A stretch of 64,000 nucleotides of DNA, from positions 19,729,584 through 19,793,583 of the forward strand of contig ML664183.1 of assembly GCA_007570785.1 (NCBI GenBank), read 5' to 3'. The stretch's first letter is position 1. Every line of letters begins with the position of its first letter. Of this stretch, positions 13,451 through 64,000 are shown in pieces. The notes under the pieces are model-generated. The model was not told the DNA's origin. It saw only the letters and a program-made list of their open reading frames with translations, and did no database searches. Source of the DNA: Antilocapra americana. Taxonomy: Eukaryota > Chordata > Mammalia > Artiodactyla > Antilocapridae. A program made the position numbers and the translations under genes.

Positions 13451-14496
13451 AAGTGATTCTTTTTTTTTTAATTAAACTTTTTTCTTTTTTATTAGTTTTG
13501 TCAAACAATGACATGATATCACCATGGGTTCACATAGGCTCCCCCTCCAGAACCCCCCTCCCTCCTCCCTCCCCCCGGGAAATCTCGTTGCACCAGTCCC
13601 AAGCATCAATCCTGGGCCGGCTATTGCTTAGACATATGATAATTAACATGTTTCAATGCCATTCTCCCATATCATCCCACCCTTTCCCTCATCCATAGAG
13701 GCCCTGAGTCTATTCTATACATCTGTGTTCCTTTTGCTGTCTCGCATGCTGGGTTCTCGTTACCGTCTTCCTAAATTCCATATATATGCATTAATATACT
13801 GTATTGTTGTTTTTGCTTCTGGCTTACTTCACTCTGGATAATGGGCTCCAGTTTCGTCCATCTGAGTAGAACTGATTCAAATGAATTTTTCCTTAATGCT
13901 GAGTAATATTCCATTGTGTATATGTACCACAGCTTTCTAATCCATTCATCAGTTGATGGGCATCTAGGTTGCTTCCATGTCCTGGCTATTGTAAACAATG
14001 CAGCAATGAACATTGGGGTACACATGTCTCTTTCAATTCTGGTTTCCTCGGTATATATGCCCAACAGTGGGATTGCTGGGTCATATGGCAGGACTATTTG
14101 CAGTTTTTTAAGGAACCTCCACACTGTTTTCCATAGAGGCTGTACTAGTTTGCAATCCCACCAACAGTGTAAGAGAGTTCCCTTTTCTCCACATCCTCTC
14201 CAGCATTTATTACTTGTGGATTTTTGGATTGCAGCCATTCTGAGTGGTGTAAAGTGATATCTCATTGTGGTTTTGATTTGCATTTCTCTGATAATGAGTG
14301 ATGTTGAGCATCTTTTCATGTGTTTGTTAGCCATTTTTATGTCTTCTTTGGAGAAACGTCTGTTAAGTTCTTTGGCCCACTTTTTGATTGGGTTGTTTAT
14401 TTTCCTAGAATGGAGCTGCAGGAGTTGCTTGTATATTTTTGAGATTAATTGTTTGTCCGTTGCTTCATTGGCTATTATTTTCTCCCAAGTGATTCT
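13451..14496 (-). mobile_element. L1 (bovine type), 5'-truncated, minus, with TSD
   Basis: TSD AAGTGATTCT at 13451-13460 and 14487-14496. The minus-strand L1 between them has a poly(A) tail (plus-strand T run at 13461), a 3' UTR with the diagnostic 'catgatatcaccatggg' and C-rich block, then the ORF2 C-terminus, truncated at about 14486. Insertion was by target-primed reverse transcription. Confidence 0.95.
13771..14334 (-). pseudogene. L1 ORF2p C-terminal fragment
   Basis: An open stretch of 187 codons ends at the natural L1 ORF2 stop (HIYGI then stop). It contains the C-terminal cysteine-rich motif as [18 protein letters not shown], so the last Cys spacing is kept while a Glu is changed to Asp relative to the other copies here. 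Only the ORF2 terminus is present. The endonuclease and RT were never copied because the insertion is 5' truncated, so there is no activity. Confidence 0.9.
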
Positions 14497-16616: not shown

Positions 16617-17002
16617 AAAAGTGCTATTGTCTAGAGTGAATTAAGCCAGAAGGAAAAACAACAATACAGTATACTAACGCATATATATGGAATTTAGAAA
16701 GACAGCAACGAGAACCCAGCATGCGAGACAGCAAAAGGAATGCAGATGTATAGAACAGACTCGTGGACTCTGTGGATGAGGGTAAGGATGGGATGATATG
16801 GGAGAATGGCATTGAAACATGTTAATTATCATATGTCTAATCATCGCCAGCCCAGGATTGATGCTTGGGGCTGGTACATCGATATTTCCCGGGGGGAGGG
16901 AGGAGGGAGGGGAGTTCTGGAGGGGGAGCATATGTAAACCCATGGCGATATCATGTCATCGTATGGCAAAAATTAAAAAAAAAAAAAAAAGTGCTATTGT
17001 CT
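16617..17002 (+). mobile_element. L1 3' end (plus), very 5'-truncated, with 16-bp TSD
   Basis: TSD AAAAGTGCTATTGTCT at 16617-16632 and 16987-17002 brackets a 358-bp L1 (16633-16990). It holds the last codons of ORF2 (HIYGI, stop TAG at 16695-16697), the complete 3' UTR in forward orientation with the G-rich block at about 16887-16925, and an A tail. It is the only young plus-strand L1 in the window without an inversion. Confidence 0.95.
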
Positions 17003-29765: not shown

Positions 29766-30068
29766 TTTTTTTTTTTTTTTTACTTTATTGTGTTGGTTTT
29801 GGCATACATTGACATGAATCTGTCATGGGTATACATATGTTCCCCTTCCAGAACCCCCCTCCCTCCTCCCTCCCGATTCCCTCTCCCTGGGTCATCCAGG
29901 TACACCAGCCCCGAGCATCAAACCTGGGCTGGCGATTGATTTCACATATGATAATTAACATGTTTCAATGCCATTCTCCCATATCATCCCACCCTTGCCC
30001 TCTTCCACAGAGTCCACGAGACTGTTCTATACATCTGCGTTTCTTTTGCTGTCTCACAGGCAGGGTTC

Positions 30069-30566
30069 TGAAAGGTTGTGGACGAGATCACAACAAAGAT
30101 GCCGGGAATCTTGGCCTCCGGAAGAGAATAATTCAATCCGGGGCCAGGGACGAGGCTTGATTGCTCAGAGCTTTTGTATAATAAAGTTTTATTAAAGTAT
30201 AAAGGAGATAGGGAAAGCTTCTGACATAGGCATCAGAAGGAGGTAGAAAGAATACCCATTTGCTAGCATTAGCACTGGAGTTATATACTCTCAAATTAGT
30301 TATTACAGTGAATAAAAAGAATGTCTAGAGGTTGTAAAGACCTCACCAGACCCATTCCCATGATTTACATTTTAAGATAACAGGATTAGCCAGAAGGTTT
30401 TTTCCAGACTGTCTCCAAGCAGGATACATTATTGTTATATAATCCTAAAGAATGTAGTAGAGAGAAAAATAAGTTTGTCCTTTCTACCCCCTTGAGAATT
30501 CCAGACTCCTCTCTCCTTGGGGACCCCTAGACTTCTTATCAACCTGCATAAGAGATGACTCTCTCA
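30069..30566 (-). mobile_element. ERV LTR, left copy (minus)
   Basis: 498 bp. On the minus strand it begins TGAGAGAGTC (U3 start, inner side) and ends ACCTTTCA (U5 end, outer side). A polyadenylation signal AATAAA in minus orientation is at 30188-30193. It differs from the right copy at about 15 positions by eye, with no length change. Confidence 0.93.
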
Positions 30567-30583
30567 TTCCCCCCTTTTCTTTT
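30567..30583 (-). promoter_or_regulatory. retroviral polypurine tract, left copy
   Basis: On the minus strand it reads AAAAGAAAAGGGGGGAA directly before the left LTR's TG. This is the RNase H-resistant plus-strand primer site that normally occurs once next to the 3' LTR. Confidence 0.88.
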
Positions 30584-30590
30584 AGGAGAA

Positions 30591-30683
30591 TTATGTTGCT
30601 TAGGGAAAAGGGGCGTTGTTTTCATTCCATAACTGCTTCCATGCTGACAAGGGGCGTCGTCCCTAGATTGAGGAGGCAACATG
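30591..30683. other. spacer between inverted arms
   Basis: 93 bp. A further short stem continues the palindrome (ATGTTGC at 30593-30599 with GCAACAT at 30676-30682, offset by one base). Inside it the two halves no longer pair well. The forward right half ('gacaaggggcgtcgtcccta') looks like ERV sequence upstream of a polypurine tract. Confidence 0.7.
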
Positions 30684-30690
30684 TTCTCCT

Positions 30691-30707
30691 AAAAGAAAAG
30701 GGGGGAA
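30691..30707 (+). promoter_or_regulatory. retroviral polypurine tract, right copy
   Basis: AAAAGAAAAGGGGGGAA immediately precedes the right LTR's TGAGAGAG. It is the exact mirror of the left tract. Confidence 0.88.
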
Positions 30708-31205
30708 TGAGAGAGTCATCTCTTATGCAGGTTGATAAGAAGTCTAGGGGTCCCCAAGGAGAGAGGAGTCTGGAATTCTCAAGGGGGAAGAAAGGACAAA
30801 CTTATTTTTCTCTCTACTACATTCTTTAGGGTTATATAACAATAATGTATCCTGCTTGGAGACAGTCTGGAAAAAACCTTCTGGCTAATCCTGTTATCTT
30901 AAAATGTAAATCATGGGAATGGGTCTGGTGAGGTTTTTACAACCTCCAGACATTCTTTTGATTCACTGTAATAACTAATTTGAGAGTATATATCTCCAGT
31001 GCTAATGCTAGCAAACGGGTATTCTTTCTACCCCTTTCTGATGCCTATGTCAGAAGCTTTCCCTATCTCCTTTATACTTTAATAAAACTTTATTATACAA
31101 AAGCTCTGAGCGATCAAGCCTCATCCCTGGCCCCGGATTGAATTCTTCTCTTCCGGAGGCCAAGATGCCTGGCGTCTTTGTTGTGATCTCGTCCACAACC
31201 TTTCA
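30708..31205 (+). mobile_element. ERV LTR, right copy (plus)
   Basis: 498 bp from TGAGAGAGTC to ACCTTTCA. The AATAAA signal is at 31081-31086. The U5-like end is relatively CpG-rich for the window. Transcription from this LTR would run rightward out of the element, antisense to the host L1. Confidence 0.93.
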
Positions 31206-31223
31206 GTTCTCGTTACCATCTTT

Positions 31224-52248: not shown

Positions 52249-52692
52249 TCTTTTGCTATATCTTTTTTTTAAAATTAATTAATTTATTTATTTATTTTAT
52301 TGTTTTTGCCATACATTGTCATGATATCACCATGGGTTTACATATGCTTCCCCTCCGGAACCTCCCTCCCTCCTCCCTCCCCCCCGGGAAATCTCGCTGC
52401 ATCAGTCCCGAGCATCAATCCTGGGCTGGCGATTGATTAGACACATGACAATTAACATGCTTCAATGCCCTTCTCCCATATCATCCCACCCTTACCCTCA
52501 TCCACAAAGTCCACGAGTCTATTCTATACATCTGCGTTCCTTTTGTTGTCTCGCATGTTGGGTTCTCGTTACCGTCTTTCTAAATTCCATATATATGCGT
52601 TAATATACTGTATTGTTGTTTTTGCTTCTGGCTTACTTCACTCTAGATAATGGGCTCCAGTTTCGTCCATCTGAGTAGAATTGCTTCAAATG

Positions 52693-52792
52693 NNNNNNNN
52701 NNNNNNNNNNNNNNNNNNNNNNNNNNNNNNNNNNNNNNNNNNNNNNNNNNNNNNNNNNNNNNNNNNNNNNNNNNNNNNNNNNNNNNNNNNNN
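52693..52792. other. assembly gap (100 N)
   Basis: Exactly 100 N, a conventional unknown-size gap. Colinear comparison with the L1 at 61428-61692 predicts about 265 bp of missing L1 sequence. Confidence 0.97.
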
Positions 52793-61004: not shown

Positions 61005-64000
61005 TTTTTTTTTCTTTCTTTTTTTTTTTTATTATTGTTTTTGCCATACATTGTCATGATATCACCATGGGTTTACATATGCTTCCCCTCCGGGTCCCCC
61101 CTCCCTCCTCCCTCCCCCCCGGGAAATCTCGCTGCACCAGTCCCGAGCATCAATCCTGGGCTGGCGATTGATTAGACACATGACAATTAACATGCTTCAA
61201 TGCCCTTCTCCCATATCATCCCACCCTTACCCTCATCCACAAAGTCCACAAGTCTATTCTATACATCTGCGTTCCTTTTGTTGTCTACCATGTTGGGTTC
61301 TCATTACTGTCTTTCTAAATTCCATATATATGTGTTAATATACTGTATTGTTGTTTTTGCTTCTGGCTTACTTCACTCTGGATAATGGGCTCCAGTTTCG
61401 TCCATCTGAGTAGAATTGCTTCAAATGAATTTTTTTTTAATGCTGAGTAATATTCCATTGTGTATATATACCACAGCTTTCTTATCCATTCGTCAGTTGA
61501 TGGGCATCTAGGTTGCTTCCATGTCCTGGCTATTGTAAACAATGCAGCGATGAACATTGGGGTGCACGTGGCTCTTTCAATTCTGGTTTCCTCGGTGTAT
61601 ATGCCCAGCAGTGGGATTGCTGGGTCATATGGCAGGTCTATTTGCAGCTTTTTAAGGAACCTCCACACTGTTTTCCATAGTGGCTGTACTAGTTTGCATT
61701 CCCACCAACAGTGTAAGAGGGTTCCCTTTTCTCCACATCCTCTCCAGCATTTATTGCTTGTAGACTTTTGGATGGCAGCCATTCTGACTGGTGTAAAGTG
61801 GTACCTCATTGTAGTTTTGATTTGCATTTCTCTGATAATGAGTGATGTTGAGCATCTTTTCATGTGTTTGTTAGCCATTTTTATATCTTCTTTGGAGAAA
61901 TGTCTGTTAAGTTCTTTGGCCCACTTTTTAATTGGGTTGTTTATTTTTCTAGAATGGAGCTGCAGGAGTTGTTTGTATATTTTTGAGATTAATTGTTTGT
62001 CTGTTGCTTCATTGGCTATTATTTTCTCCCATTCTGAAGGCTGTCTTTTCACCTTGCTTATAGTTTCCTTTGTTGTGCAAAAGCTTTTAATTTTAATTAG
62101 GTCCCATTTGTTTATTCGTGTTTTTATTTCCAATATTCTGGGAGGTGGGTCATGGAGTATCCCGCTTTGGATTATAGCAGAGAGTGTTTTGCCTATGTTA
62201 TCCTCTAGGAGTTTTATAGTTTCTGGTCTTATGCTTAGATCTTTAATCCATTTTGAGTTTATCTTTGTGTATGGTGTTAGAAAGTGATCTAGTTTCATTC
62301 TTTTACAAGTGGCTGTCCAGTTTTCCCAGCACCACTTGTTAAAGAGGTTGTCTTTTCTCCATTGTATATTCTTGCCTCCTTTGTCAAAGATAAGGTGTCC
62401 ATAGATGCGTGGATTTATCTCTGGGCTTTCTATTCTGTTCCATTGATCTATGTTTCTGTCTTTGTGCCAGTACCATACTGTCTTAATGACTGTGGATTTG
62501 TAGTATAGCCTAAAGTCAGGTAGGTTGATTCCGCCAGTTCCATTCTTCTTTCTCAAGATTGCTTTGGCTATACGAGGTTTTTTGTATTTCCATACAAATT
62601 GAGAAATTATTTGTTCTAATTCTTTGAAGAAGACCTCTGGTAGCTTGATAGGAATTGCATTGAATCTATAGATTGCTTTAGGTAGTATACTCATTTTCAC
62701 TATATTGATTCTTCCAATCCATGAGCACGGTACATTTCTCCATCTGTTTGTGTCCTCCTTGATTTCTTTCATCAGTGTTCTATAGTTTTCTATATACAAG
62801 TCTTTTGATTCTTTAGGTAGAAATACTCCTAAGTATTTTATTCTTTTTGTTTCGATGGTGAATGGGATTGTTTCCTTAATTTCTCTTTCTGATTTCTCAC
62901 TGTTAGTGTATAGGAATGCCAGGGATTTCTGTGTGTTGATTTTGTATCCTGAAACTTTGCTATATTCACTGATTAGCTCTAGTAATTTTCTCGTAGAGTC
63001 TTTAGGGTTTTCAATATAGAGGATCATGTCATCAGCAAACAGAGAGAGTTTTACTTCTTCTTTTCCAATCTGTATTCCTTTGATTTCTTTATCTGCTCTG
63101 ATTGCTGTGGCCAAAACTTCCAAAACTATGTTGAATAGTAGTGGTGAGAGTGGGCACCCTTGTCTTGTCCCTGATTTCAGGGGGAATGCTTCCAGTTTTT
63201 CACCATTGAGGATAATGTTTGCTGTGGGTTTGTCATATATAGCTTTTATTATGTTGAGGTATGTTCCTTCTATTCCTGCTTTTTGGAGGGTTTTTATCAT
63301 AAATGGATGTTGAATTTTGTCAAAGGCTTTCTCTGCATCTATTGAGATAATCATGTGATTTTTATTTTTTAATTTGTTAATGTGGTGTATTACATTGATC
63401 GATTTACGAATATTGAAGAATCCTTGCATCCCTGGGATAAAGCCTACTTGATCATGATGTATGATCTTTTTGATGTGTTGTTGGATTCTATTTGCTAGAA
63501 TTTTGTTGAGGATTTTTGCGTCTAAGTTCATCAGTGATATTGGCCTGTAGTTTTCTTTTTTTGTGGCATCTTTGCCAGGTTTTGGAATTAGGGTGATGGA
63601 GGCCTCATAGAATGAGTTTGGAAGTTTACCTTCGTCTGCAATTTTCTGGAAGAGTTTGAGTAGAATAGGTGTTAGCTCTTCTCTAAATTTTTGGTAGAAT
63701 TCAGCTGTGAAGCCATCTGGTCCTGGGCTTTTGTTTTTTGGAAGATTTCTGATTACGGTTTCAATTTCCGTGCTTGTGATGGGTCTATTAATATTATCTA
63801 TCTCTTCCTGGTTTAGTCTTGGAAAGTTGTACTTTTCTAGGAATTTGTCCATTTCATCCAAATTGTCCAGTTTATTTGCATATAGTTGCTGATAATAGTC
63901 TCTTATGATCCTTTGTATTTCTGTGTTTTCTGTTGTGATCTCTCCGTTTTCATTTCTAATTCTGTTGATTTGGTTCTTCTCCCTTTGTTTCTTGATGAGT
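61005..64000 (-). mobile_element. young L1 (minus), 3' half, continues past the window
   Basis: T-run (poly(A)) at 61005-61031 with a C interruption, 3' UTR with 'catgatatcaccatggg', C-rich block at about 61096-61120, then ORF2 open to the window edge. It is the least damaged LINE in the window. The right end and TSD are outside. Confidence 0.97.
61315..63999 (-). CDS. L1 ORF2 protein (reverse transcriptase/endonuclease), C-terminal part
   Basis: A continuous frame of about 894 codons (848 from the first internal Met at 63861, plus 46 more to the window edge) out of a usual length near 1,275. ORF2p nicks target DNA and reverse transcribes L1 and SINE RNA in cis and trans. Numbering from Met63861: fingers/palm include [11 protein letters not shown] (104-114), [12 protein letters not shown] with the motif A Asp175, [12 protein letters not shown] (231-242, motif B) and FADDMILY with catalytic Asp277-278. 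The C-terminal cysteine-rich motif [18 protein letters not shown] is at about 705-722. It ends HIYGI-stop. No stop or frameshift is visible. The endonuclease domain, ORF1 and 5' UTR lie beyond 64000, so competence cannot be judged. The true start is outside; Met63861 is internal. Confidence 0.92.

Follow-up and report, generated by a model that had tools for sequence, protein, structure and literature searches.

The window, i.e. the whole stretch of 64,000 nt from Antilocapra americana that was analysed, carries an insertion of 1137 bp (30069-31205), made up of an inverted LTR with its polypurine tract (PPT), a middle of 107 bp, and a second PPT and LTR running forwards (Table 1). Its inverted-repeat arms (30068-30590 and 30684-31206) are 523 nt long, 97 % complementary to each other and separated by 93 nt. 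Both LTRs measure 498 bp, align without gaps and differ at 15 of the 498 sites, and their U5 ends are outermost on both sides. The alignment of the arms bears out what a sequence-only reading of the locus had described, namely two inverted 498-bp LTRs, each with a PPT, whose U5 ends point outwards.

Table 1. Features of the inserted element and of the target site duplication (TSD) around it, as positions in the window
Feature	Position	Strand	Basis
TSD, left copy (GTTC)	30065..30068	.	flank matches overlap by exactly 4 bases in four uninterrupted host-repeat copies
Left LTR; U5 end outward at 30069, U3 start at 30566	30069..30566	-	inverted-repeat and LTR alignments
Left-arm polypurine tract (PPT)	30567..30583	-	identical tract immediately 5' of the 3' LTRs of proviruses
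S2 stem, the half next to the PPT of the natural inverted repeat in this family, extra A included	30582..30599	-	comparison with family 3' ends
Loop, i.e. the stretch of the proviral 3' internal region that separates S2 from S1	30600..30674	-	collinear with proviruses
S1 stem, i.e. the turn point; without the extra base of S2 (as in proviral S1), followed by the PPT-LTR of the other arm	30675..30692	-	alignment to proviruses
Right-arm polypurine tract	30691..30707	+	alignment to proviruses
Right LTR; U3 start at 30708, U5 end outward at 31205	30708..31205	+	inverted-repeat and LTR alignments
TSD, right copy (GTTC)	31206..31209	.	as for the left copy, four host-repeat copies

The host of the element is a dispersed repeat, taken for L1 in the sequence-only reading, of which four other copies in the window match both flanks. 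In these copies, the matches of the left and the right flank meet at 13753-13756, 16712-16715, 52562-52565 and 61297-61300, respectively, and overlap each time by exactly four bases, i.e. by the TSD, and all four copies are uninterrupted, thereby showing the empty site within the 64-kb window itself. The element has GTTC on both sides, i.e. the 4-bp TSD of its ERV family. Because of the single GTTC duplication and the 4-base overlaps of the flanks, the most plausible reading of the whole element is that a single linear molecule was inserted once, and the earlier claim that one duplication encloses the whole and restores the host text is confirmed by the four uninterrupted copies. Elsewhere in the window, 100 N (52693-52792, an assembly gap) lie directly 3' of a stretch matching the host repeat.

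The element belongs to a gammaretrovirus-like (class I) ERV family, represented in the same genome by the proviruses L009 to L012. When the left LTR was used as a query, the 39 other places among the best 40 of 2942 candidates scored were 96-97 % identical to it, and the window LTRs have the features that define the LTRs of the family (about 498 bp, TG...CA ends, >90 % identity). The genome contains 84 + 82 exact matches to the 15-nt U5 end of the window LTR, as against 7 + 5 for the control, in which the same pattern was read backwards. Solo LTRs are common in this family, with 15 of 34 LTRs having identical four bases on both sides. The primer-binding site (PBS) of the four proviruses reads TGGGGGCTCGTCCGGGAT in two of them, with one base different in the other two, and fits what we take to be tRNA-Pro as the primer. 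Pieces of the provirus L009 match the domains RVP, RVT_1 and RNase_H (protease, reverse transcriptase and RNase H), while a fourth piece had no protein-domain match.

With an ordinary class I provirus of this family, the window element shares the LTR, the 4-bp TSD, and the PPT and 3' internal region directly 5' of the LTR. In contrast to a standard provirus, i.e. direct LTRs with a PBS after the 5' LTR, its LTRs are inverted, gag-pol-env is missing and the two outer ends are both U5 instead of one U3 and one U5. No PBS was found in the element, the whole middle of which is accounted for without one. Likewise, the sizes of the LTR and the TSD are those of a solo LTR, i.e. a single LTR between TSDs, but the window element has two inverted LTRs together with PPT and internal sequence. 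The palindrome of a 2-LTR circle, which is the junction of LTR ends within a circle, is also formed by LTR ends, whereas in the window element the U5 ends are on the outside of an integrated linear element.

The proviruses L009 to L012 are collinear with the left arm, i.e. through the LTR, the PPT and then about 110 nt more, and the middle of the window element is the family's own 3' internal region 5' of the PPT. The comparison of the arms with proviruses of the same family, here from the same genome, had been suggested together with the sequence-only reading and explains the middle. The 93 bp given earlier for the spacer stand as the length between the arms, and this spacer is not foreign sequence.

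This internal region contains a natural inverted repeat of 18-19 nt, which is a property of the family, with one half (S1, TTAGGAGAATATGTTGCC) upstream and the other (S2, GGCAACATAATTCTCCTAA) adjoining the PPT. S1 and S2 are equal except for one extra A in S2, and S2 has one base different in two of the four proviruses. The window element matches the provirus along S2, the loop and S1, and at S1 it switches into the PPT-LTR in the opposite direction. At this right junction, the repeat has the length of S1, i.e. the extra A of S2 is absent, and one further base is unlike the four proviruses. A junction with the S1 version is the result expected if a minus-strand 3' end located in S1 anneals to the S2 half on minus-strand DNA and is then elongated. 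The earlier claim that the minus strand turned back just 5' of the PPT is therefore supported, with the turn point now located in the natural inverted repeat of the family.

With the spacer as a query, all 39 non-self places among the best 40 of 292 candidates stopped matching at base 148 of the 176 in the query, i.e. at the turn point, and 37 of them started at base 1, one at base 2 and one at base 13. In these 39 places, the second short match corresponds to the natural inverted repeat. S1 and S2 occur, with substitutions here and there, in 23 distinct aligned 3' ends (loci with at least 140 nt upstream and the G run, identical ones dropped, and the loci L043 and L047 included), and in L047 the S1 half also has the extra base. 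The minus-strand DNA of L009 folds through the repeat with a minimum free energy of -20.6 kcal/mol (z -4.13, none of 200 shuffles as good), and the repeat in L009 scores 16, compared with at most 12 in 2000 shuffles. A shorter DNA piece reached a z of only -1.49 (21 of 200 shuffles as good), and the RNA strand of the stretch folds no better than shuffles (z 0.06).

A second element with two U5 outer ends, L043 (C1562, near 4.411 Mb), is among the best 40 of the 292 candidate places for the spacer query. It consists of an inverted R-U5 piece of 181 nt, a jump with a 3-nt overlap and then PPT-LTR, with TTAC at both outer ends. Thus, two U5 ends with one TSD around the whole are found in the window element and in L043, in the latter as judged by the TSD only, while a turn point at the inverted repeat with the primer's version kept is found in the window element only. 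On L011 and L012, the landing point of the jump in L043 lies about 413 nt 5' of the LTR; L009 and L010 match L043 only from about 30 nt further in. Its arms share a base that is absent from all 57 of 57 other LTRs and differ at seven sites, six of which occur in 1 to 14 of these 57 copies. The inverted piece begins at LTR position 318, and the TATA is at 280 in the window LTR, i.e. 38 nt earlier, the TATA copy of L043 itself being altered. Since the inverted piece starts near the expected start of R, as inferred from the TATA spacing, strong-stop DNA may have primed L043. The overlap of just 3 nt further implies that a strong inverted repeat is not required. The window element and L043 have different turn points and different insertion sites, and given L043, our data suggest that U5-U5 insertion is not a one-off.

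Among the best 40 of the 292 spacer candidates (L033 to L072), which were compared with the window LTR with upstream room of at least 1.6 kb in 39 of them and of 290 nt in L058 (at a contig end), two are U5-U5 elements, i.e. the window element and L043, and one (L064, visible in full length in L074) is a direct-LTR provirus that contains an inverted U3/PPT piece; in four places with diverged or broken LTRs (L066, L070, L071 and L072) an inverted piece could escape. Exact-motif searches of the genome, which miss diverged copies, matched the window alone for the reverse complement of the PPT followed after a gap of 81-141 by the PPT without mismatches. Likewise, 56 exact PPT-LTR junctions at 55 loci contained one facing pair, i.e. 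the window, and no other symmetric case, and 44 exact 18-nt U5 ends contained one outward pair within 10 kb, again the window. For 100 of the 166 exact 15-nt U5 ends, the nearest minus-then-plus pair lies about 29.5 kb apart. A further 31 loci with an exact PPT (L076 to L106) were compared in the stretch 5' of the PPT only, where 30 had no match to the window LTR and the remaining one, L102, had short inverted U3 pieces; in about ten of the 31, the 3' ends stop matching the proviruses after some 40-470 nt.

The comparison of the arms bears on the number of templates involved. A T at alignment column 19 is present in both window arms and in none of the other LTRs (0/34 and 0/57). Because this exclusive base is common to both, the two arms probably derive from one source, as far as LTR comparison can tell. 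Of the 15 differences between the arms, nine are private to one arm when set against 34 other LTRs; against 57 distinct LTRs, six are private, four occur in one or two copies, and five occur in 6 to 14 copies or are unpolarised, the comparison LTRs having been picked out because they resemble the left arm or the spacer and therefore not being a random sample. Those five are all CpG sites by context. Recurrent CpG change may explain many of the arm differences, and some mixing of two sources is possible. The divergence of the arms (K2P 0.031) is within the range of the LTR pairs of the four proviruses (0.010, 0.014, 0.016 and 0.035), so that the two arms were probably alike when the element was inserted. 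A two-parent origin suggested by a 9-nt gap at the arm edge was dropped, since the comparison with proviruses shows that the palindrome ends there.

We consider it probable, with some confidence, that the window element arose when integrase inserted, in a single event, an aberrant linear cDNA of a class I ERV that had been formed by a turn-back of the minus strand at S1/S2 and extension through U5. The tRNA-primed minus strand would have copied U5 and R, jumped, and then copied U3, the PPT, S2, the loop and S1. The 3' end of this strand, in the complement of S1, would then have annealed to the complement of S2 in minus-strand DNA, i.e. in its own strand or in a sister strand from an identical co-packaged RNA, and would have been extended in the plus sense through the PPT, U3, R and U5. 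Once the second strand was completed, the result would be a linear duplex, both ends of which correspond to tRNA-primed minus-strand 5' ends and thus to U5 ends, and integrase would have joined both of them to the host repeat with a 4-bp duplication. Both ends would be U5 in the window element as well as in L043 because the plus-sense DNA was apparently made on a minus-strand template by a minus-strand 3' end.

The sequence-only reading had supposed that opening the hairpin gives a linear molecule with two U5 termini, which fails, as opening yields a duplex of one arm with a single U5 end. A snapped-back hairpin could instead be completed e.g. by PPT-primed displacement and a new minus strand from U5, or, alternatively, two minus strands could have primed on each other. 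We infer the timing during reverse transcription, the completion of the second strand, the use of two U5 ends by this integrase and the choice between intra- and intermolecular priming. Counting against the explanation, there are two clear cases only, and the second-strand step leaves no trace.

Intermolecular priming is a sub-case that overlaps with this explanation, in which two nascent minus strands from identical co-packaged RNAs prime each other by their 3' regions and no hairpin is formed. Both U5 ends would then arise directly, without the second copying of a snapped-back strand, and the inverted arm of L043 has about the length expected of strong-stop R-U5, as if this DNA had primed on a longer minus strand. 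However, the expected start of R is judged from the TATA spacing and the TATA of L043 is altered, arms from one source would need identical genomes, and in the window element a single strand carries both S1 and S2, which are separated by about 75 nt and fold onto each other. We therefore favour snap-back for the window element and regard intermolecular priming as possible, but as having somewhat less than an even chance.

Cellular end joining of two broken 3' pieces of ordinary linear cDNA, head to head and prior to integration, or alternatively autointegration, would also be expected to result in two U5 ends and one TSD, and the overlap of only 3 nt in L043 would suit end joining. On the other hand, the window junction lies in a pre-existing 18-19-nt inverted repeat with the version of one half kept, neither of which plain ligation predicts, and autointegration consumes viral ends, which makes this origin unlikely. 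That two solo LTRs were inserted separately, or that a provirus was rearranged once integrated, is highly improbable: solo LTRs are indeed common in the family and internal inversions occur in related copies (L074 and L102/L108/L109), but the single TSD around the whole, which the sequence-only reading had already held against two solo LTRs, comes with a clean empty site, and neither arm can be a solo LTR, as each contains a PPT and internal sequence; moreover, a rearranged provirus should retain one U3 end at a side, and the exclusive base is common to both arms. Inverted duplicates are a known type of assembly or library fold-back artefact, which can scarcely apply to arms that differ at 15 of 498 sites between flanks that are not inverted and an exact TSD, with L043 existing as a second case.

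Turn-back of the minus strand at a hairpin finds a parallel in HIV-1, for which passages of one report (PMC4668388) describe self-priming of minus-strand strong-stop DNA, i.e. likewise priming by the minus-strand 3' end on minus-strand DNA. According to these passages, the HIV-1 product is an aberrant cDNA, whereas the product in the window was integrated and inherited, and its turn is near the PPT and not in R (PMC4668388). For integration, parts of a study of integrases list U5-end oligonucleotides among the substrates, report a preference of the gammaretroviral Rev-A enzyme for concerted integration of two viral ends in vitro, and give TSD sizes of 5 bp for Rev-A and 4 bp for MLV (PMC3790719). 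By analogy with this in vitro substrate and concerted-integration work, the use of two U5 ends by integrase appears plausible.

The type of the ERV family is known. The U5-U5 architecture was not found described for an ERV in the titles and abstract openings of the open-access literature, a scope outside which most subscription journals lie, and this is weak evidence of novelty. On balance, we lean towards the view that retroviruses recurrently, at low frequency, make 'double-minus' U5-U5 linear cDNAs, by way of PPT-proximal hairpins or strong-stop DNA, and that integrase inserts them as well-formed units, i.e. an overlooked class of ERV beside the provirus and the solo LTR. LTR finders seek direct repeats and would therefore pass such elements by. 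Their signature, i.e. outward U5 ends, one TSD, and a PPT or R-U5 inside, allows a search in any genome, and such elements could measure the frequency and position of the turn-backs of reverse transcriptase. The window element looks like a relic of reverse transcription gone wrong, the product of which still became integrated and was passed on; if this is true, integration in the germ line is able to use two U5 ends, and the self-copying of minus strands, an aberrant product in its published description, can reach a complete duplex.

Strand turn-backs may also lie behind other copies in the genome, and L074, L102/L108/L109 and L047 suggest that they are not rare in this family, although none of these copies has two U5 ends. 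L074 (2608-6422, C972) is a direct-LTR provirus with internal deletions that contains about 78 nt of the PPT and the start of U3 in inverted orientation. At L102/L108/L109 (C2196, near 15.697 Mb), a U3-PPT-internal segment of about 1 kb is inverted between plus-orientation U3 and U3-R pieces, with a related but diverged LTR. L102 was considered as a U5-U5 element and rejected, as its left end starts like a plus-orientation U3, and it reads instead as a diverged copy whose inner segment is inverted. L047 (around 1538-1651, C3) is a provirus that has lost about 800 nt internally, with the deletion junction at S1, which carries the S2 version and so forms a perfect 20-nt inverted repeat with S2, as if a snap-back had begun and then been abandoned. 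In L098 (C1890), a truncated copy, 385 nt 5' of the PPT are 95 % identical, with no proviral match beyond them. Finally, L084 (1-130, C317) is a related older copy, broken on both sides, in which, through either a palindrome or a loop inversion, the S1-S2 loop is inverted beside the PPT.
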